From Methanosphaera stadtmanae (GTDB lineage Archaea > Methanobacteriota > Methanobacteria > Methanobacteriales > Methanobacteriaceae), in the NCBI GenBank assembly GCA_015062825.1, contig SUTR01000012.1:8761-53961 (forward strand): a stretch of 45,201 nt of DNA. Reading direction: 5' to 3'. The notes beneath the pieces are model-generated. The model was not told where the DNA came from and did not search any database. It saw only the letters and a program-made list of their open reading frames with translations. How positions within the stretch are numbered: position 1 is the stretch's first letter; every line of letters starts with the position of its first letter. The translations under genes were made by a program, and so were the position numbers. This document shows positions 2,032 through 44,584 of the stretch, in pieces.

Positions 2032-4002
2032 TTAATCTTTAAACTTATCTAATATGTCCTTATAAACACTTTTTATAGGTTCTTCTGATTTTTCATATAC
2101 TCTTGTAAGAATAAGCTCTGGTGTACTGTTTGCAAGATAATTAATTCTAGGACTACGATCAACTATTAAATTATAATCCTTATCAAGACCCTTTGCTTCA
2201 ATACCGTCAGTTCTAATTTTCACATCATTTGTATGTTTAAGTATCTCTGATGCCATATGTGTTACAATAATAGCATAGGATTGTTTGTCCTGTATGTGTT
2301 CAATAAATCCTATGATAATCTTTATTGCAGCTTCCAGTTCTGTTATTGATTCAAGTTCATCAATTAATATTAATTTTCTTTCTCGTCCAACAACTACTGG
2401 TATGAATGATGTTAAAAATGTTTCAAATGCCCCTGCATTAAGGGAATGTTTCTTTGTAAAGTAGTATACTTCACTGGTTTGGGCTATCCTTGCTGTTTTA
2501 CTGCATACTCCAAGTCCCATATGGGTCATGATAGTATGTTGGGCTAATGTTTCAAGTAATGTGGTTTTACCACCACTATTTGCACCAGTAAGTAGAATAA
2601 TATTGTTGTCATCATCTAAGTTATAGTTTATGGGCTGTGTTTCAAGATTTTCTTCATGTTCCTGTTGCTTTAGTGTAAGGTGTAATGCTCCTTCAAGTAC
2701 ATACTCCTTGGTAATATTAGGTATTGTTAGATTATAGTATTTACTAAAGTGTGCAAGGCTAAACTGGTAGTCATAGTGGATTAGTTCTGTTGTTTCTTCT
2801 ATGATTTTTTCCTTGAATTTTTCAAGTTTAACACATGCATTTAATTCCTTTTCATATTGTTTAATATGATGGTTTGCTCGATTGTTTTCCTGTACTCTTT
2901 TTATTTCATCATAGTCTATTTCTAATGGGTATTTTATTATGAATGGATCAATGTATATTCCGGTTTGTTTTTTTATTTCATCTTTTGCAATATCTAATTG
3001 CTTGTTAAATATGGTCATTATCTTTGGCGGTAAGTTTTCATTATTTAACAATTGCAGTACTTCTTCTCCGCTCAAATCAATCTGTTTTATTTGTTGTTCT
3101 ATTTGCTTGTCTGTTTTATCTTTTATGTCTTCTATAATGCCTGTTACCTCAAGGTCTTCATGTTTTTCTAATGTAATCTCATCAAGTGTTTCAAGTACCT
3201 TGTCTATGCATGTGTCTAAATTAAGATATTTTCTTAAGTTAAATACATTTTCTAGTATTGGCCTGTTTTGTCTGTAGAATTCTAGTTCTACAGCCGGCTG
3301 TATTTCATAATCCGGACTTTTATTGCTTACTGTGATTATATTTGATGTTTCTCCAGGATCTGTATTGAAATCATTATATATGTAAATTATATATTCATAT
3401 TCATTTAGGTCTGTATTGTTTTCTAACGGATAAATATTGCAGTATTTGTTCAATCCACGTTCCAGCAGTTCCATATAATCTTCATAGTCTTCACATAGAA
3501 TTGCATAGGTATCGTTGAATTTTGCTTTGCAATTGGTATTTAATGGTGTAATGTTTTGGTAAAGTTTTCTTATATAATCATAGTCAAGATTTTTGGTATT
3601 GTCCAGTGTCTTCATTATAATTTCATTTCTCTTTGATATTTCATCATAATCTGTTGTAGGTGTTAATAGTAATACGCGATTTCTTGCATATTCTGTATTG
3701 GTAAATGTTAAAATACGATTAATTATATCTTGATATATAGTCTCTGCCTGAGTAGTTTTAAGAAATTCATCTTGCTGTTTGTCCAGAACAAATCTTGCAA
3801 TCTCCAAAGCCTTCTGTCTACTAAGACCTGGAATGCTCATAAGCTTATCAATCTCATAAGCTCTGATTGACTCTTCAAAATTCTCATAAGAGGAATAACA
3901 CTCCAAAATCTTGTCAATAATCTTACTGCCTACACCCTTAATCTCTTCTATAGCATAAATACTAAACACATCCCATTGAAAATAATTAAAATCAAGTACC
4001 AA
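2032..4002 (-). CDS. Archaeal MutS-family ATPase with N-terminal helix-hairpin-helix (MutS2/MutS5-like)
   Basis: This 656-residue protein has an N-terminal helix-hairpin-helix DNA-binding region (roughly residues 15-70: IKGVGSKIIDKIL and IPGLSRQKALEIA), a long coiled and clamp-like middle (about 270-420), and a C-terminal MutS ABC ATPase. The ATPase shows a Walker A (GANSGGKTT, near 475), a Walker B (LILIDELES, near 547) and a downstream switch His (VTHMASE). It lacks the MutS1 mismatch-recognition domain and has no Smr nuclease domain, so it resembles the archaeal MutS2/MutS5-like group rather than a canonical mismatch-repair MutS. A role in branched-DNA processing or recombination is inferred. 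The start is a TTG at 4002 after a weak GATGA; no in-frame ATG lies near it. Confidence 0.85.
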   Translation of the reverse strand: MVLDFNYFQWDVFSIYAIEEIKGVGSKIIDKILECYSSYENFEESIRAYEIDKLMSIPGLSRQKALEIARFVLDKQQDEFLKTTQAETIYQDIINRILTFTNTEYARNRVLLLTPTTDYDEISKRNEIIMKTLDNTKNLDYDYIRKLYQNITPLNTNCKAKFNDTYAILCEDYEDYMELLERGLNKYCNIYPLENNTDLNEYEYIIYIYNDFNTDPGETSNIITVSNKSPDYEIQPAVELEFYRQNRPILENVFNLRKYLNLDTCIDKVLETLDEITLEKHEDLEVTGIIEDIKDKTDKQIEQQIKQIDLSGEEVLQLLNNENLPPKIMTIFNKQLDIAKDEIKKQTGIYIDPFIIKYPLEIDYDEIKRVQENNRANHHIKQYEKELNACVKLEKFKEKIIEETTELIHYDYQFSLAHFSKYYNLTIPNITKEYVLEGALHLTLKQQEHEENLETQPINYNLDDDNNIILLTGANSGGKTTLLETLAQHTIMTHMGLGVCSKTARIAQTSEVYYFTKKHSLNAGAFETFLTSFIPVVVGRERKLILIDELESITELEAAIKIIIGFIEHIQDKQSYAIIVTHMASEILKHTNDVKIRTDGIEAKGLDKDYNLIVDRSPRINYLANSTPELILTRVYEKSEEPIKSVYKDILDKFKD

Positions 4003-6452: not shown

Positions 6453-8765
6453 TTATTCTGACGGCACATCTATTGTAACTATTGAAGGATTATCCTCGGT
6501 GTTAACCATCTGTGAATTTGCAGGTGCAGTGTATTTGCCGCCCATGTTATAATAATAATTTTTCACAAATTCCATAATAGTTGAATTCAAATAATATGAT
6601 GGTGTTACTTTCATAAAACCATTTTCCTTAAGAGCCTTATCAGTATTCATTACTTCAGTCCATGTTGCCCATTGTACAGCATTAATATTGTGGCTGGGAC
6701 CACTTGGGTTTAAGCATAAAAATGTATCATTAACAGAATTATATGCTGCTATTGCCATATAATGACCATTAATATGCCAAAATATCATACTACCTTCTTC
6801 CAATGCACTTTTCACAGATTCCTTAGTATTGTTAATATTTGTTAAAGTCATATTAACAAGAGGTGAATACTTGATGATGTTGGATTCATCCGTTCCATAT
6901 GCAGCAGTTGTAAGATATACACCTGCAAGTTTTCTTTCACTTCTATATACATTTAAGCCCTGACTAATCATACTCATAGCAGTTGGTCCGCAAGTATATC
7001 TTTCACCGTTAATCCATTCCTGATAATCAAAGTATATTGGAGTATAACGAATCTTTCCAGTTAAATTCACAGTAATCATATAAGGGAATCCAACAGAATC
7101 ATATCCCTGATCTACATGGTATTTATTCAGTGCCCTTATAATAACATTCCATTTTTCACGACTGATAACATATTTAATATTTGAATTTTCAGTTCTGAAA
7201 AATGTATACTTCGGTGTGAAACCATATATCTGTTGACAATAACTGTCTAATTGTCTTACTCTAACTATTTCAGCAACAGTTATATTATACACTCCTTCTT
7301 CATCAGCAAAAACATAATCTGCTCCTAGCCTGGAAATATCCGGTTTTCCATCTACTGGTGTAATATTCATTGTAATTGCAGTTTCATTACCTGTATCATC
7401 TAAGCTAAGGAATGTCTCATTATCTATTATCACTATTTCTGTAATCTCAATTGTAGTGGTAGTGTTTCTCTGGCTTTTATAAGCAAGTCTGTCTTGTGTA
7501 ACTATCTCTATGCTATTGTATGTTGAATATGCGGGTATGCTTAGATTGCTTATTGTGATGTTTCCATCTGTAGCATAGAAGTATTGTGGCTTTGTTTCGT
7601 TTTTGATTGTGATTCCGTTTATTTTGATTATGTATTTGTTTGGTCCTATTACATTATTGTTTAGGTAGTCTTTGATTGTTGCATTTAATGATAGTTGGTG
7701 GCTTGTTTTGTCTATGGTTGTGTTTTGGAATTGTATTGTTATGTCGGATCTTTCTGTTTGGAATGTGCTGGTGTTTGTTGCTGTTGGGTAGTAGTTTTTG
7801 TTTGCATATCCTGCGAGTATTGTATGGTTTTTTGTTGTGAATGTTTTACCGTCTGTCACTGCAGATAGTCCCAATGGAATGTAGTATTGTGTTGTTGCTG
7901 TTGAATTTACTACTTTAACCTTCAGGGCATTTCCTTGTTCATCTTTTAGTGTTATTCCGTTAACTTTGAAGTATACGTATTCGTCTGTGTATGGTGCTAG
8001 TGTGGTGTTTCTTTGTCCTGTTGTTATGTCGTATATTTTTGCTGTTATTGTAAGGTATTGTCCTTGTTTTATTGTTTTTACATTACTTGAGACTTCTATT
8101 GATGCGTTTCTTAGTGCTATTTGTGCTGTTGCTGTGTTTGATCTGGATGCGTTGTATGTGGTTGATCCTGAGTATACTGCTGTTAGTGTTTTTGCATTTC
8201 TCATGTTGAGGTCTGCTGTTATGTTTGTTGTTGCTGTTCCGTTTTTTACATATACCTTTAGGTTATTTGTACTTCCTGTGAGTTTACCATTATCTTTTAT
8301 GGTAACACCATTTAATTTGAAGATAACATATCCATTAGTTACATTTTCATCATTTTCATCCAGTACTGTTGCATTTAAAGTTAAATTGTTTCCAATTATT
8401 CCTTTGCTGGTTGATACTATGACTGAAGTAAGTGTTTTTGTATTGTTGTTTGTGTTTTCTTCTTGACTGTTGTTCTCTGGATAATCTGTTGAGGTGTTAT
8501 TTGTTGTTTCAATATTTTCTGTATCATTAAGATTATTGGTTATATTTGAATTTTTAAGGTTTTTATCTTCCTTAATTAGTGAAGCCTTCTTGATTTCATT
8601 ATTATCTACATCATAAGTTAAATCATTTGTGCTGTGATTATTTTCCTCTATCTTATCATCATAAGTATTGGTATAATCGGGTGCATCTGATGCACTAACT
8701 ATTCCTACCAAAAAGATGGATAAAAGTATAAGAAGAAACAAATTAATAATCTTTGTATATCTCAT
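6453..8765 (-). CDS. Secreted adhesin-like protein with Ig-like repeats and C-terminal C39-like cysteine peptidase domain
   Basis: This 770-residue protein begins with a signal peptide (residues 1-25, hydrophobic INLFLLILLSIFLVGIVSA) and a Thr/Asn/Glu-rich linker (26-110). Ig-like beta-sandwich repeats follow (about 111-440). The C-terminal third (about 470-770) ends in a papain-like region: CGPTAMS with Cys near 592, GHYMAIAAY with His near 668 and LNPSG near 684, the Cys-His-Asn/Asp order of Peptidase_C39-like domains. Catalysis is inferred; it could process wall peptides or surface proteins. Residues about 170-339 are encoded by DNA identical to part of the neighbouring giant gene. Many N-x-S/T sequons suit AglB glycosylation. 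No C-terminal membrane anchor is visible. Confidence 0.85.
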   Translation of the reverse strand: MRYTKIINLFLLILLSIFLVGIVSASDAPDYTNTYDDKIEENNHSTNDLTYDVDNNEIKKASLIKEDKNLKNSNITNNLNDTENIETTNNTSTDYPENNSQEENTNNNTKTLTSVIVSTSKGIIGNNLTLNATVLDENDENVTNGYVIFKLNGVTIKDNGKLTGSTNNLKVYVKNGTATTNITADLNMRNAKTLTAVYSGSTTYNASRSNTATAQIALRNASIEVSSNVKTIKQGQYLTITAKIYDITTGQRNTTLAPYTDEYVYFKVNGITLKDEQGNALKVKVVNSTATTQYYIPLGLSAVTDGKTFTTKNHTILAGYANKNYYPTATNTSTFQTERSDITIQFQNTTIDKTSHQLSLNATIKDYLNNNVIGPNKYIIKINGITIKNETKPQYFYATDGNITISNLSIPAYSTYNSIEIVTQDRLAYKSQRNTTTTIEITEIVIIDNETFLSLDDTGNETAITMNITPVDGKPDISRLGADYVFADEEGVYNITVAEIVRVRQLDSYCQQIYGFTPKYTFFRTENSNIKYVISREKWNVIIRALNKYHVDQGYDSVGFPYMITVNLTGKIRYTPIYFDYQEWINGERYTCGPTAMSMISQGLNVYRSERKLAGVYLTTAAYGTDESNIIKYSPLVNMTLTNINNTKESVKSALEEGSMIFWHINGHYMAIAAYNSVNDTFLCLNPSGPSHNINAVQWATWTEVMNTDKALKENGFMKVTPSYYLNSTIMEFVKNYYYNMGGKYTAPANSQMVNTEDNPSIVTIDVPSE
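7747..8255 (-). repeat. Copy 1 of a 509-bp identical direct repeat (Ig-like domain block)
   Basis: By eye, bases 7747-8255 match 9259-9767 at every position, with a constant offset of 1512. Immediately outside, the two genes diverge (for example 7745-7746 and 8256). It encodes about 170 residues of Ig-like repeat in the C39-like adhesin. Identity at DNA level, silent sites included, points to recent duplication or gene conversion. Confidence 0.95.
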
Positions 8766-8945
8766 GTAATCTAAACCATTAATAATTTTTTAATTGTATA
8801 AAAAAATACATAATACTTATTTATTGTAAACTTACTTTATAAACTTAATTGTTCAAAGTATAAAAATTTCATATTAAATATTTATTGTTAATCTTTGAAT
8901 GATTTTTTTTATAGAAAAAAAGAAAATTAAGAAGGTCATATCTTT

Positions 8946-11900
8946 TTAGTTAATTGTTTTAATAATGGTTGTCATATTTCTCTGGCTTTTGTATGCTAGT
9001 CTGTCTTGTGTAACTATTTCTATGCTTTTGTATGTTGTGTATGAGGGTATGTTTAGGTTGTTTATGTTTATGTTTCCATTTGTTGCATAGAAGTATTGTG
9101 GTTTGTCTGAGTTTTTGATTGTGATTCCGTTTATTTTTATTATGTACTTGTTTGGTCCAATAACTTTGTTTTGCAGGTAGTCCTTGATTGTTGCATTGAG
9201 TGATAATTTATGACTTGTTTTGTTTATTATAGTTTTTTGGAATTGTATTGTTATGTTTGATCTTTCTGTTTGGAATGTGCTGGTGTTTGTTGCTGTTGGG
9301 TAGTAGTTTTTGTTTGCATATCCTGCGAGTATTGTATGGTTTTTTGTTGTGAATGTTTTACCGTCTGTCACTGCAGATAGTCCCAATGGAATGTAGTATT
9401 GTGTTGTTGCTGTTGAATTTACTACTTTAACCTTCAGGGCATTTCCTTGTTCATCTTTTAGTGTTATTCCGTTAACTTTGAAGTATACGTATTCGTCTGT
9501 GTATGGTGCTAGTGTGGTGTTTCTTTGTCCTGTTGTTATGTCGTATATTTTTGCTGTTATTGTAAGGTATTGTCCTTGTTTTATTGTTTTTACATTACTT
9601 GAGACTTCTATTGATGCGTTTCTTAGTGCTATTTGTGCTGTTGCTGTGTTTGATCTGGATGCGTTGTATGTGGTTGATCCTGAGTATACTGCTGTTAGTG
9701 TTTTTGCATTTCTCATGTTGAGGTCTGCTGTTATGTTTGTTGTTGCTGTTCCGTTTTTTACATATACTTTCAGGTTAGTTGTACTTCCTGTGAGTTTACC
9801 ATTATCCTTTATGGTTATACCATTTAGTTTAAATATTACATATCCATTGGTGACCCTATTTTTATTAACATCAGTTATGTTTGCTTTAAGTGTAAGTTTT
9901 TCACCTATAATTCCACGGACAGTTGATATGCTGATATCAGTATTGTATTGTTTAACAACTACAAGTCCATTTGCATATGTTTGGGAATATGAACTGAACT
10001 TGGAATTTCCATAATAATTGAATGTAATATTATTATTTCCCATCAACTGACTGATTGCAATGAAGTTAAATGTGATGCTTCCATTTTTTACAATACCTGT
10101 TATATTTTTTCCATTGGTGTCAGTTAATACTTTATTATTAAGCTTAACAGATACATTTCCTCCATCTGCGGGATAATAATTCTTATTTGACAATCCATTT
10201 CCAATTTTTAATATCAAACTTGCATTAGTATCTACACGAACAATTGTCTTATTGTATGAAAATACTGGTGTCATAGGATTGATTTTAATATTAACAGTTT
10301 TTCTAGCAGCACTTGTCGATTCATTTCCATCATAAATGAATGTAAGATTATATTCACCTTTATCCATGCTTGTAGGAAGGGTATAGTTATAATTTACCAC
10401 GCCTTTTGTAATGTTATATTCTTCAATTAACTTATTTGCAATGTATGTCTTTAATTTACCATTGTTTATGTTAATGTTTCCTGATTTGATATTTGCCTTA
10501 ATATTGATTGATTTACCAATAGTTCCAACATAATTATTGGAGGTTATGTCTGTTTTTGTCTGTATTCCTAAGATATTAGTTCCAGTTGCACTTTTATAAG
10601 AGTCTGTTCCAAGATAGGTTACTTTTATTGTATGCACACCTATTGTTTGACTGTTTGAAATTGGATAATTATATTTGACAACACCTAAATTTAAATTTAC
10701 GGTAGCTAGCTTTTTATTATCCAAATAAATTGTTGCCTGTCCAGTTCCAATCTTTCCGCCAGTTGATGTTGTAATGTTGGCTGTTATGGTAGCAGTTGAA
10801 CCTAATGTATTTAATACTTTGGCAACAGACACTACAGTTTTTTCTGCTTCCTTAAGAAATGTGGCTTTGGTTTGCATACTTGTATTCTGGAAGTTAACAC
10901 CTCTTGCCGATATGGTTAATGTGTAAGTTGTAGGATTTAACAACTTTGAAACTGTGTATGGTAAAATAACAGTATGATTTGTTACATTAACACTTCCTAA
11001 TGTGTTCTGACCTAATCTGAATGTAACTGTAAGATTTTTCAGATTTTCCGTGTTTGAATTAATAACTGCGGTTAAGTTAATCAAATCACCTAAATGTGCA
11101 GTAATTGGATTTGCCGTTATATCTACAAAGTATAAGAAATTGTTTGACACGATATTTGTTGAGTGCTCGTTTAACACACTTTTATCTGCAAATGTATTCT
11201 TTGCCTTCAATGAATTATTTGTAACATTATTATATCTGGTGTCCTTTGTTAACTTAACACTATTTGTTGCATTGGTATCTATCATATTGCCTGTTATCCT
11301 GTTATAGCTACTGTAACTCATAAGCATTATTCCATCGTCACCGGATTCAATAACATCACTATGTGCTGCAGTACTCGTCTGGCCATAATTATATTTTCTC
11401 AATGTAAAAGTGTTGTTTGTAATATTATTATATGATGTTCTATATCCTGATATACCATAAGGATAGGTAGCATTAGCATTTATGCTATTGTTAGATATAT
11501 TATTATAGCTTGAATCAAACAATTCAAATGGATAAACTGATGATCCTGTAATGCTTATATTATTCTTGGATAATGTAGAATGGGTACTGTTTTCAAGAGT
11601 AACTGCATGACTATAATCTCCCCTATTCGTATTGTTATGATAAGCGTTTACTTTGATATTATTTGATTCAACAACAGTGCCAATACTGTTTCGTCCAGCA
11701 ATAAATCCTGTTACAAAGTAACCACCATTTAAATTAACGGTATTATACATAAATTTGTTTGCTGTTGCATTAAGACTTGTAATTGATGACCCCCAGTTTC
11801 CTCCAAGAACACCCATTCCATAAACATATGGACAGTAACTTGTAAAGCTTATATTATTGTAGCTTACCTGATTATTATGGCTGTCAAAGTAAATGTCAAT

Positions 11901-14054
11901 ACCTACAATACTATTTTTACAGTTATTTGTTGGAAAAGTATAATTCTTGAATCCAGATGTAACCTTAACAGTATTGTTCTTTATACTATTTTCAGATGAG
12001 TATAAAAGTATTATTCCATGATTATGTAATACCTCAGTGATAGTGCCTATTTTCTCATTAAACATCACAGAATCATCATATGCAAGACTGACATTTGACT
12101 GTTTTACATGTAAAATGTTCTTCTCCAACACATTTGAATCAGATGAATATAAGAGAATTGCATTGTTGATATAATCACTATTTGTTGTAATATTACATCC
12201 AGATACCTTATTTCCATTTGCACCATAGATAAATATGCCCAGACTTTCAGATTCAGCTAGCGTATCAATAACAACATTACTTATTTCACAATTATTTACC
12301 TCAACTACTTCTATTCCATGACAAATAGTATTCTTCCTGTTATTATTTATCTTTAAATTAGTGACAGTTGATGAATGTGCATCACCAGTTAAAGTAATCA
12401 TACCATTATCAATAACACAATTTCTTCCAATAACATGCACTTTCTTATTAAATGTAAAATTATGATTTGTAAACGTACCCTCTAAGTAAATTGTTGCATT
12501 CTGTTGAATTTTTGAATTGGATATTCCATCGGTAAAATACTGGTTATAATTTGATTCTTTAATGACAATTGTCTGATTAGAATCAAACAATGTCTCATCA
12601 TTAACATTTTCAGGCCTAAGATATGCATTACTGCCACTTCCCTTGCCTGACTTAAGTACATTGGAACTGTCTATTGTAATATTGACTTGACTGGCATCAG
12701 ATGAACCTGCTTCTAATAGATCAATAGCATAATCTGTTTGTGAAACAATATTATTTCTACTAATCAGTACATGGTTAATCTTTTTAGTGTTTGATTGTTT
12801 TCTAAATAATATGCCTTCCAGCTTACTTGTTATCTTATTATTGTCAATGACAATATGGGAATATTTACCTTTAGAATGAATGCCCATACTATTGGTGGAA
12901 ATCAGTGTATTATTTGTGATGTTCACATTATTTGCTCTTATTTCAATAGCCTGTCCATCAACACTATTGATTGTATTGTTTGTTATGCATACATTATCCC
13001 CACCAACGGTTATGCCAAAGGCACTGCCGTTTACATGAATATTGTTATTTGACACATTTGCCTTCTCACAGGCATAAATACCTGTGCTGATGGCATGAAC
13101 ATCATTTCCTGATATTATATTATTCTCATAATCCTGTGTGGATATTCCTCTAAATCCACCATCAACAGTATTGTTAATAATATTATTGTTTGCACCCATA
13201 ACCTGTATGGTATAACACCATGAAGTAATATTTCCACGTGCAGTAATCTTATTTCCTCTGATGTTGTTGTAATTACTAGGACCACCATCAAAATCTGCTT
13301 CACTGCTTCCATATATACTTAGATAAATACCATTGGCTCCACCACATTCTATTGTATTGTTTAGAATATTATTATGATGACTGTTACCGATTACAAATGT
13401 AATATATCTCCAATCATCACCTTCACGTTTAAAATCATTGTATCTTATAGTACTATTGGTCATGTAATCTGCAACAAAACCATATGAACGAAGACCATAA
13501 GTTTTAATTATATTATTTTCAATTATAAGATTTGATGAATTCTTAACCTGAATTGCTCTAAGTAAAGTACCATTATTGGTAATTTTCAAATCCTTTATAA
13601 TGGAATTGGAAGAATTGCCTCCAACTACAAAAACAGTACAATTATATAATTGCGTATTGGCATCATAACCTGTTAATGTGATTGATTTGTCCACTGTGAA
13701 ATTTACATTAGTGAATGTGCCCTTAAGTTTTACAGTATCACCAGATTGAATTAGATTGCTACTTTTAGGAATATATGAATTGGACTGCTTTTGAAAATAA
13801 TACTCATAATTATCCTTAGTGATTGTAATGATACCTGATGATTTCTTTAAATTCTGTTTTTTCTTCTCAATTAATTTGGTTGAATTATCTTTTATAACAT
13901 CATGATCATAACTTTGTATATTATCCAATTCAGATGATGCCATATTCACATTATCGCAACTGATGCTGTTGTCGGTATGCTTTGTGGCAGATACTGCAGT
14001 AATACTAATCAATAACAATACAAACAATAATAAAAAAGCATTCTTACACTTCAT
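8946..14054 (-). CDS. Giant adhesin-like protein: beta-helix plus Ig-like repeats
   Basis: This 1702-residue protein begins with a signal peptide (KNAFLLLFVLLLISITAVSA) and a Ser/Asp-rich linker. A very long right-handed parallel beta-helix (about 100-960) follows, built of N-N-x-I-x-x-N-x-I turns (NNIINNTV, YNNITNNTF, SNNSINAN) as in NosD/pectate-lyase-like repeats. About five to six Ig-like domains complete it (about 985-1700). Residues about 1429-1598 are encoded by DNA identical to the next gene. The protein stops soon after the shared RLAYKSQRN motif, where the neighbour continues into its peptidase domain, so it may be shortened. No anchor is seen. The ATG at 14054 has a GAGGATT ribosome site. 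Sequons are abundant. Surface binding is inferred from the family. Confidence 0.88.
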   Translation of the reverse strand: MKCKNAFLLLFVLLLISITAVSATKHTDNSISCDNVNMASSELDNIQSYDHDVIKDNSTKLIEKKKQNLKKSSGIITITKDNYEYYFQKQSNSYIPKSSNLIQSGDTVKLKGTFTNVNFTVDKSITLTGYDANTQLYNCTVFVVGGNSSNSIIKDLKITNNGTLLRAIQVKNSSNLIIENNIIKTYGLRSYGFVADYMTNSTIRYNDFKREGDDWRYITFVIGNSHHNNILNNTIECGGANGIYLSIYGSSEADFDGGPSNYNNIRGNKITARGNITSWCYTIQVMGANNNIINNTVDGGFRGISTQDYENNIISGNDVHAISTGIYACEKANVSNNNIHVNGSAFGITVGGDNVCITNNTINSVDGQAIEIRANNVNITNNTLISTNSMGIHSKGKYSHIVIDNNKITSKLEGILFRKQSNTKKINHVLISRNNIVSQTDYAIDLLEAGSSDASQVNITIDSSNVLKSGKGSGSNAYLRPENVNDETLFDSNQTIVIKESNYNQYFTDGISNSKIQQNATIYLEGTFTNHNFTFNKKVHVIGRNCVIDNGMITLTGDAHSSTVTNLKINNNRKNTICHGIEVVEVNNCEISNVVIDTLAESESLGIFIYGANGNKVSGCNITTNSDYINNAILLYSSDSNVLEKNILHVKQSNVSLAYDDSVMFNEKIGTITEVLHNHGIILLYSSENSIKNNTVKVTSGFKNYTFPTNNCKNSIVGIDIYFDSHNNQVSYNNISFTSYCPYVYGMGVLGGNWGSSITSLNATANKFMYNTVNLNGGYFVTGFIAGRNSIGTVVESNNIKVNAYHNNTNRGDYSHAVTLENSTHSTLSKNNISITGSSVYPFELFDSSYNNISNNSINANATYPYGISGYRTSYNNITNNTFTLRKYNYGQTSTAAHSDVIESGDDGIMLMSYSSYNRITGNMIDTNATNSVKLTKDTRYNNVTNNSLKAKNTFADKSVLNEHSTNIVSNNFLYFVDITANPITAHLGDLINLTAVINSNTENLKNLTVTFRLGQNTLGSVNVTNHTVILPYTVSKLLNPTTYTLTISARGVNFQNTSMQTKATFLKEAEKTVVSVAKVLNTLGSTATITANITTSTGGKIGTGQATIYLDNKKLATVNLNLGVVKYNYPISNSQTIGVHTIKVTYLGTDSYKSATGTNILGIQTKTDITSNNYVGTIGKSINIKANIKSGNININNGKLKTYIANKLIEEYNITKGVVNYNYTLPTSMDKGEYNLTFIYDGNESTSAARKTVNIKINPMTPVFSYNKTIVRVDTNASLILKIGNGLSNKNYYPADGGNVSVKLNNKVLTDTNGKNITGIVKNGSITFNFIAISQLMGNNNITFNYYGNSKFSSYSQTYANGLVVVKQYNTDISISTVRGIIGEKLTLKANITDVNKNRVTNGYVIFKLNGITIKDNGKLTGSTTNLKVYVKNGTATTNITADLNMRNAKTLTAVYSGSTTYNASRSNTATAQIALRNASIEVSSNVKTIKQGQYLTITAKIYDITTGQRNTTLAPYTDEYVYFKVNGITLKDEQGNALKVKVVNSTATTQYYIPLGLSAVTDGKTFTTKNHTILAGYANKNYYPTATNTSTFQTERSNITIQFQKTIINKTSHKLSLNATIKDYLQNKVIGPNKYIIKINGITIKNSDKPQYFYATNGNININNLNIPSYTTYKSIEIVTQDRLAYKSQRNMTTIIKTIN
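9259..9767 (-). repeat. Copy 2 of the 509-bp identical direct repeat
   Basis: This is the second copy of the block at 7747-8255, in the same orientation and in the same reading frame, inside the 3' part of the giant adhesin gene. Flanking Ig-like sequence on both sides is similar at protein level but clearly diverged in DNA, so the identical block has sharp edges. Confidence 0.95.
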
Positions 14055-43471: not shown

Positions 43472-44584
43472 TCAATATTGTATTTGATTAATTATTTTTA
43501 ATCCTTCCTTATGTATATTTTTGGCAGCATTAATGTCTCTATCATGTCTGTTACCACATTGGGGGCATGTCCATGTTCGGTTGTTTAGTGTTAGGTCTTC
43601 TTTGTGGTATTGGCAGTTGTTGCATGTTTTGCTGGAGGGGTACCATTGGTCTATGTGTATTAGTTTTCGTCCGTGTTTGTATGCTTTTTGTTCTAGTATT
43701 CTGGTGAACATGTGCCAGGATTTTTCTTGTATACTTCGTGATAGTCTGCTGTTTTTTAGCATGCCTTTGATGTTTAGTGTTTCCATAGAGATTACGTGAT
43801 ATTTTTCTGTTAATCGTTGTGCTATCTTATAGAAATGATAGTCTAGTATGTTATGTCTTTTTTCATATGCTAGGGTTATCTTCTTTTTGATTTTATTGTA
43901 GTTTTTGCTGCCAATTTCTTTTTTGGATAGTTTTCTTTGAAATCTTCGTATTTTCTTGTCTAATTGTATGATCTTGTTTTGTTGTGGGAAAGGTATTATT
44001 TCGCCCGTGTTTATTGTGACAAAACGTGATATTCCCAAATCTATACCACAACTGCGATCATTACTCTTAAAAACATGCCTTGTGACATCTTTACATAAAA
44101 TAGAAACAAAATATTTCCCTGATGCTTTTCGTTTAACAGTGACAGATTGTATTTTGCCGGATATCTTTTGATGTGTACGAAATCGAATCCAACCCACCTT
44201 AGGAAGACGAATCCATTTATCCATAATTCTGATGTTGTTATTGATATTATTGGTTTTATAAGATTGTACTGGATTATACTTACTTTTATAGCGTGGATAC
44301 TTGCTAAGGTGTTTAAAAAATCGGTCAAAAGCATTTTCTAAATTTTTCAACGATTCAATCAAAGCTTGTGAATCAACTCGTTTTAACCAATCCTTAGACT
44401 TCTTCAACTCAGTCAACATAGCCGAACAATCATAAAAAGACAAATACTTTCCACTATCTGAGTATACAGTCTTTTTAGCATCCAGAAAAGTGTTAAAAAC
44501 AAAACGGCAACAACCAAACTGATTAATAAAAAAACTCTCCTGAATCTCATCAGGATAAATACGAACAACAATACTCTTATACAT
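43472..44584 (-). CDS. tnpB: TnpB, RNA-guided RuvC-type nuclease of IS200/IS605-group element
   Basis: This 370-residue protein has an N-terminal helix-turn-helix/WED-like part, then the split RuvC nuclease: Asp in CGIDLGISRF (about 181), Glu in ISMETLNIKG (about 267) and Asp in HDRDINAAKNI (about 350). A zinc ribbon (CNNC ... CPQC, about 322-343) lies between the last two. All three catalytic acids are present, so it may be active. Family members cut DNA guided by an omega-RNA from the element's right end. No tnpA transposase gene is in the window, so this is a stand-alone (IS1341-like) form. The ATG at 44584 has only a distant GGTG upstream. Confidence 0.93.
   Translation of the reverse strand: MYKSIVVRIYPDEIQESFFINQFGCCRFVFNTFLDAKKTVYSDSGKYLSFYDCSAMLTELKKSKDWLKRVDSQALIESLKNLENAFDRFFKHLSKYPRYKSKYNPVQSYKTNNINNNIRIMDKWIRLPKVGWIRFRTHQKISGKIQSVTVKRKASGKYFVSILCKDVTRHVFKSNDRSCGIDLGISRFVTINTGEIIPFPQQNKIIQLDKKIRRFQRKLSKKEIGSKNYNKIKKKITLAYEKRHNILDYHFYKIAQRLTEKYHVISMETLNIKGMLKNSRLSRSIQEKSWHMFTRILEQKAYKHGRKLIHIDQWYPSSKTCNNCQYHKEDLTLNNRTWTCPQCGNRHDRDINAAKNIHKEGLKIINQIQY

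Follow-up and report, generated by a model that had tools for sequence, protein, structure and literature searches.

Two neighbouring genes for secreted surface proteins of Methanosphaera stadtmanae share 509 bp that are identical at every base, set within homologous sequence that has otherwise diverged. We put at about three in four the probability that this pattern, read from the DNA sequence, reflects recent gene conversion between the adjacent Ig-like cassettes of the two genes. They lie in the window, i.e. the whole stretch of 45,201 nucleotides that was analysed, which belongs to a 2.6-Mb draft genome in 132 contigs. The identical block is bounded on both sides by homologous sequence, and the contrast between block and flanks extends to silent sites. 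One of the two partners is a giant adhesin, and the other, a candidate wall peptidase, carries a region resembling the pseudomurein endoisopeptidase PeiR.

An identical tract in neighbouring genes

The 770-aa gene sits downstream of the giant adhesin-like gene, and both are on the minus strand (Table 1), as the preliminary description had it. In the giant, Pfam Beta_helix and Big_3_5 match above the cut-off; in the 770-aa protein, Big_3_5 matches below it. These matches and the signal peptides agree with the definition of archaeal adhesin-like proteins (ALPs), which calls for an N-terminus that is either secreted or anchored, together with a beta-helix, Ig-like (big) domains, or both (PMC11532034). 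The intergenic region probably contains the promoter of the 770-aa gene, to judge from its sequence, and a T-run that follows the giant's stop codon may act as a terminator.

Table 1. Features of the two genes and of the tract that they share (positions in the window).
Feature	Position	Strand	Evidence or remark
770-aa secreted protein gene: signal peptide, Ig module aa 111-445, PeiR-like cysteine peptidase region aa 446-770	6453..8765	(-)	
PeiR-like/C39-like region aa 446-770	6456..7430	(-)	alignment, Pfam C39_2, PDB 8z4h/8z4n sequence and fold
C-side homologous flank, copy 1	7449..7746	(-)	83% vs 8961-9258; 8/25 fourfold differences
Identical block, copy 1, within 770-aa gene	7747..8255	(-)	509/509, maximal exact run
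N-side short flank, copy 1	8256..8330	(-)	87% vs 9768-9842
AT-rich intergenic region between 770-aa gene and giant	8766..8945	.	sequence read directly
1702-aa giant adhesin-like gene: signal peptide, beta-helix, Ig-like domains, terminal Ig module aa 1372-1699	8946..14054	(-)	
C-side homologous flank, copy 2	8961..9258	(-)	homology ends ~5 codons from giant's stop
Identical block, copy 2, near giant adhesin gene 3' end	9259..9767	(-)	direct comparison
N-side short flank, copy 2	9768..9842	(-)	87% vs 8256-8330

A direct comparison by script showed that all 509 bases of the two copies match and that the exact run is maximal, since it cannot be extended by a single base on either side. The preliminary description had claimed an identity that included silent sites, with sharp edges and diverged homologous flanks, and each of these points is borne out. 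Sliding windows reveal three tiers of identity: 100% in the block, some 80-87% in the adjoining sequence (82.8% in the C-side flank and 86.7% in the short N-side flank), and about 55-58% past position 8330, which is no higher than between other members of the family. With both flanks, the homologous tract spans 880 bp. Of the four-fold-degenerate sites, none of 89 differ in the block, whereas the C-side flank has 25, of which 8 differ (Fisher P = 2e-6), and given a flank identity of 0.83 the probability of a run of 509 bp is about 1e-41. At 100% the block occurs in only two places of the genome, and the next best match is at 75%.

The shared module is an Ig-like cassette, some 330 aa long, that occurs nine times in this genome and dozens of times in the genus, with many copies in other Methanosphaera genomes, usually at the extreme C-terminus of giant adhesins with a beta-helix. 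We compared all pairs among 41 homologous modules. The next longest exact run is of 128 bp, and the contrast between block and flank, 17.9 percentage points here, reaches at most 15.6 among the 741 other module pairs. The other 39 modules are just 56-75% identical to the block. This rules out purifying selection or constraint at the DNA level as the source of the identity and, together with the difference between block and flank at fourfold sites, it excludes chance and selection on the protein.

What we find is thus a bounded tract, identical at silent sites, between flanks that are homologous but diverged. The preliminary description had offered gene conversion or unequal exchange. The tiers and the contrast at silent sites favour the former; a simple unequal exchange, or a fresh duplication of the whole module, fares badly, since the flanks are 13-30% diverged and only the middle is identical. 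The three tiers of divergence imply that exchange took place at least twice, at different times, and that the latest event covered about 509 bp. The two modules would first have become homologous through an older acquisition or exchange, and near the block they have since diverged by 13-17%. Some 509 bp would then have been overwritten by non-reciprocal homologous recombination between the giant's C-terminal module and the N-terminal module of the secreted PeiR-like peptidase candidate, presumably by the cellular recombination machinery rather than by a dedicated recombinase. The giant gene may have been the donor: its C-side flank is closer than that of the 770-aa gene to 35 of 39 family members, which is a weak hint because these members are not independent. 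When genome contigs were scanned with an alignment of the C39 region, only other Methanosphaera species were retrieved, with no second genome of the source species, in a collection that has one genome per species; a scan with the single protein gave no match.

We found no sign of a mobile element at the edges of the repeat, i.e. neither inverted repeats nor a transposase. The only transposase-like gene seen, OrfB/TnpB (43472-44584, minus strand; Pfam OrfB_IS605 and a Cas12f1-like TNB domain), is far from the repeat. A few genes from the adhesin pair lies a 656-aa gene (2032-4002, minus strand) with MutS domain V and a helix-hairpin-helix region. The proximity of a MutS-like ATPase to a recombining locus may be a coincidence.

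Homogenised cassette ends and the copying of patches look widespread in the adhesin family of Methanosphaera. The single-contig relative G003 has giants at distant loci whose ends match at about 90-100%, against 40-60% in their mid-part, and which are otherwise unalignable. In the present genome we also noted a 441-bp exact direct repeat with a spacing of 639 bp, where there is no long ORF (L081 4598-5038 and 5237-5677, G000:C5). Elsewhere in this genome (L077 6633-9734, G000:C129) a beta-helix adhesin has this Ig module as well and, behind it, a cyclophilin-like domain (PF18050) at the C-terminus, i.e. another enzyme-like tail joined to the Ig cassette.

The PeiR-like region and its relatives

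The C-terminal region of the 770-aa protein matches Pfam Peptidase_C39_2 above the cut-off, and it is 59-69% identical to its counterparts in ten other Methanosphaera genomes. Q582, C592, H668 and N686 are invariant in the alignment of the 11 Methanosphaera members. Searches of the PDB matched its sequence to PeiR (8z4h, 8z4n) with E 7.6e-11 at about 20% identity. A predicted model of moderate confidence (pLDDT 69.6) matched the fold of the same protein (Foldseek E 3e-11, TM 0.74 over the PeiR chain), with a fold alignment of 246 columns for a PeiR chain of 228 residues. The PeiR nucleophile C90, which is mutated in 8z4n, aligns with C592. Hence alignment, Pfam, PDB match and predicted fold concur on a catalytic Cys and His in a C39 fold. 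Judging from sequence and model, the region probably acts as a cell-wall isopeptidase or as some related peptidase.

PeiR is a pseudomurein endoisopeptidase that belongs to a provirus of Methanobrevibacter ruminantium (PMC6189367). The present protein shares with PeiR the C39-like cysteine peptidase domain and the aligned catalytic Cys. It differs in being a predicted chromosomal secreted protein with an Ig module, at a low level of sequence identity, and in having no Pfam match to the pseudomurein-binding repeat (PMBR) at E <= 1. We also considered a viral origin of the C39 domain, and scans of viral contigs gave no relative.

The architectures in which the C39 domain is found vary among species: it may be N-terminal, C-terminal, or placed at the end of a giant. 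The last case is in G014 (L107 4490-10117), where a 1875-aa protein combines a papain-family domain, Ig repeats and a C-terminal PeiR-like C39 domain. We rejected the idea of a conserved operon of giant and C39 gene. G007, G018 and G005 do have an Ig adhesin close to their C39 gene, but a third gene stands between the two and their local protein identity is only 24-44%; elsewhere the arrangement is not conserved.

Alternative explanations of the repeat

It is unlikely, in our view, that the identity is an assembly artefact, in which similar but non-identical blocks were given one consensus by a short-read assembler traversing a simple repeat loop. Naturally, a scaffolded draft in so many contigs, with fixed 100-N gaps, invites this suspicion. 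One such run of Ns stands directly before the window (G000:C101:8661-8760, L075); the window is the right-hand contig of the scaffold, and the adhesin ORF on its left is cut at the N run. Among the stretches of this genome that we compared, exact repeats across contigs do not exceed 140 bp while the local ones reach 441 and 509 bp, as if only simple loops had been traversed. Yet smoothing erases scattered SNPs and cannot turn a divergence of about 17% into 0% across exactly 509 bp. Furthermore, the single-contig genomes G003 and G014 also hold exact repeats in related genes, of 406 bp (between two loci some 790 kb apart in G003) and 444 bp. Since G003 shows similar homogenised ends, an artefact is not needed to account for the pattern. 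A search of contig ends for assembly k-mer overlap returned none. The assembler could have smoothed a few real differences inside the block.

A single event, in which copy 1 arose very recently from copy 2 by partial tandem duplication or by unequal exchange, without later conversion, would be in keeping with genes that are adjacent and on the same strand, and with a homology that stops near the giant's stop codon. We consider it quite improbable, because a single recent duplication predicts identity over the whole tract, whereas the homologous tract runs past the block at 83-87% on both sides.

The preliminary description further suggested that the repeat could be a built-in switch of surface-protein architecture. 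On this reading the direct repeats would be maintained, and the population could shift between a state with the genes apart and one in which they form a single giant adhesin-peptidase fusion. The description's point that a deletion between the copies would fuse the genes in frame holds: the computed deletion removes 1512 bp, and the reading frame of the product is open over 2029 aa. The reason given, that 1512 is divisible by three, is irrelevant, since the fusion is in frame whatever the length of the spacer as long as the two copies share a reading frame, as they do. From the sequence, such a fusing deletion is possible at a low rate of homologous recombination. The switch itself is possible in principle but finds no support, even if the deletion product is open and the G014 giant ends in a C39 domain of the type found in the 770-aa protein. 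Four other pairs of nearby modules, of which G003 and G011 supply three and this genome one, lack a long exact block, with runs of at most 61 bp. The arrangement is not conserved at orthologous loci: at the C39 loci of ten relatives, the C39 gene shares no exact repeat with a neighbour. Neither a fused nor a third copy of the block is present in the assembly, the edges of the block showed neither a dedicated recombinase nor a special site, and a deletion of 1512 bp is not readily reversible. Exact local repeats are also frequent in the adhesin family, so the 509-bp repeat alone is no sign of a device. A maintained switch is therefore very unlikely. We would give only the faintest credence to the repeat being a selected site of recurrent recombination, where deletion in a sub-population welds the PeiR-like wall-cutting domain onto the tip of the giant adhesin; if true, this would give heterogeneity of cell-surface architecture in a gut archaeon.

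Related systems and implications

The proposed gene conversion between neighbouring cassettes has parallels in other archaea. The PKD/Ig clusters of Methanosarcinales (PMC8416519) likewise consist of clustered large Ig surface proteins, with mosaics and C-terminal Ig domains conserved or homogenised by recombination. They differ from the present case in lineage (Methanosphaera belongs to the Methanobacteriales), in Ig family (PKD there and Big_3_5 here), and in that here an exact tract of 509 bp joins a giant adhesin and a peptidase gene. By analogy, we take the Methanosphaera case to be the same kind of event as in the clusters of Makarova et al. 2021. In the VARTIG system of Thermococcales (PMC8416519), too, the gene of a large Ig protein lies upstream of one that shares its C-terminal Ig region, and recombination involves that region. 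In VARTIG, the hypervariable C-terminal Ig domain is exchanged between Thermococcales species, and its authors detected no recombination within the locus (PMC8416519), whereas the present tract belongs to another lineage and is homogenised inside its own locus. We rejected an identity with VARTIG, whose definition calls for arCOG07710 and for hypervariability of the C-terminal Ig domain, at a locus in Thermococcales, given the genus and a module homogenised between neighbours.

Closer to home, the ALPs of Methanosphaera stadtmanae and Methanobrevibacter smithii have an N-terminal hydrophobic segment, a right-handed beta-helix and repeated Ig-like (archaeal big) domains, and a few carry extra enzymatic domains (PMC11532034). 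The genes studied here resemble them in these features, but the main text of that paper mentions neither recombination nor C39, nor does it describe the shared module with a PeiR-like domain attached. Our literature search on gene conversion in methanogen adhesins found nothing specific.

The pair of genes illustrates cleanly how gut methanogens reshuffle their large repertoire of adhesins. Shared Ig cassettes that are similar enough to convert each other mean that domains, including a candidate wall peptidase, can move among surface proteins. They also call for caution, as the similarity of Ig modules in these adhesins does not follow the history of the genes. Finally, the chromosomal family of PeiR-like enzymes offers a lead on the remodelling of pseudomurein.
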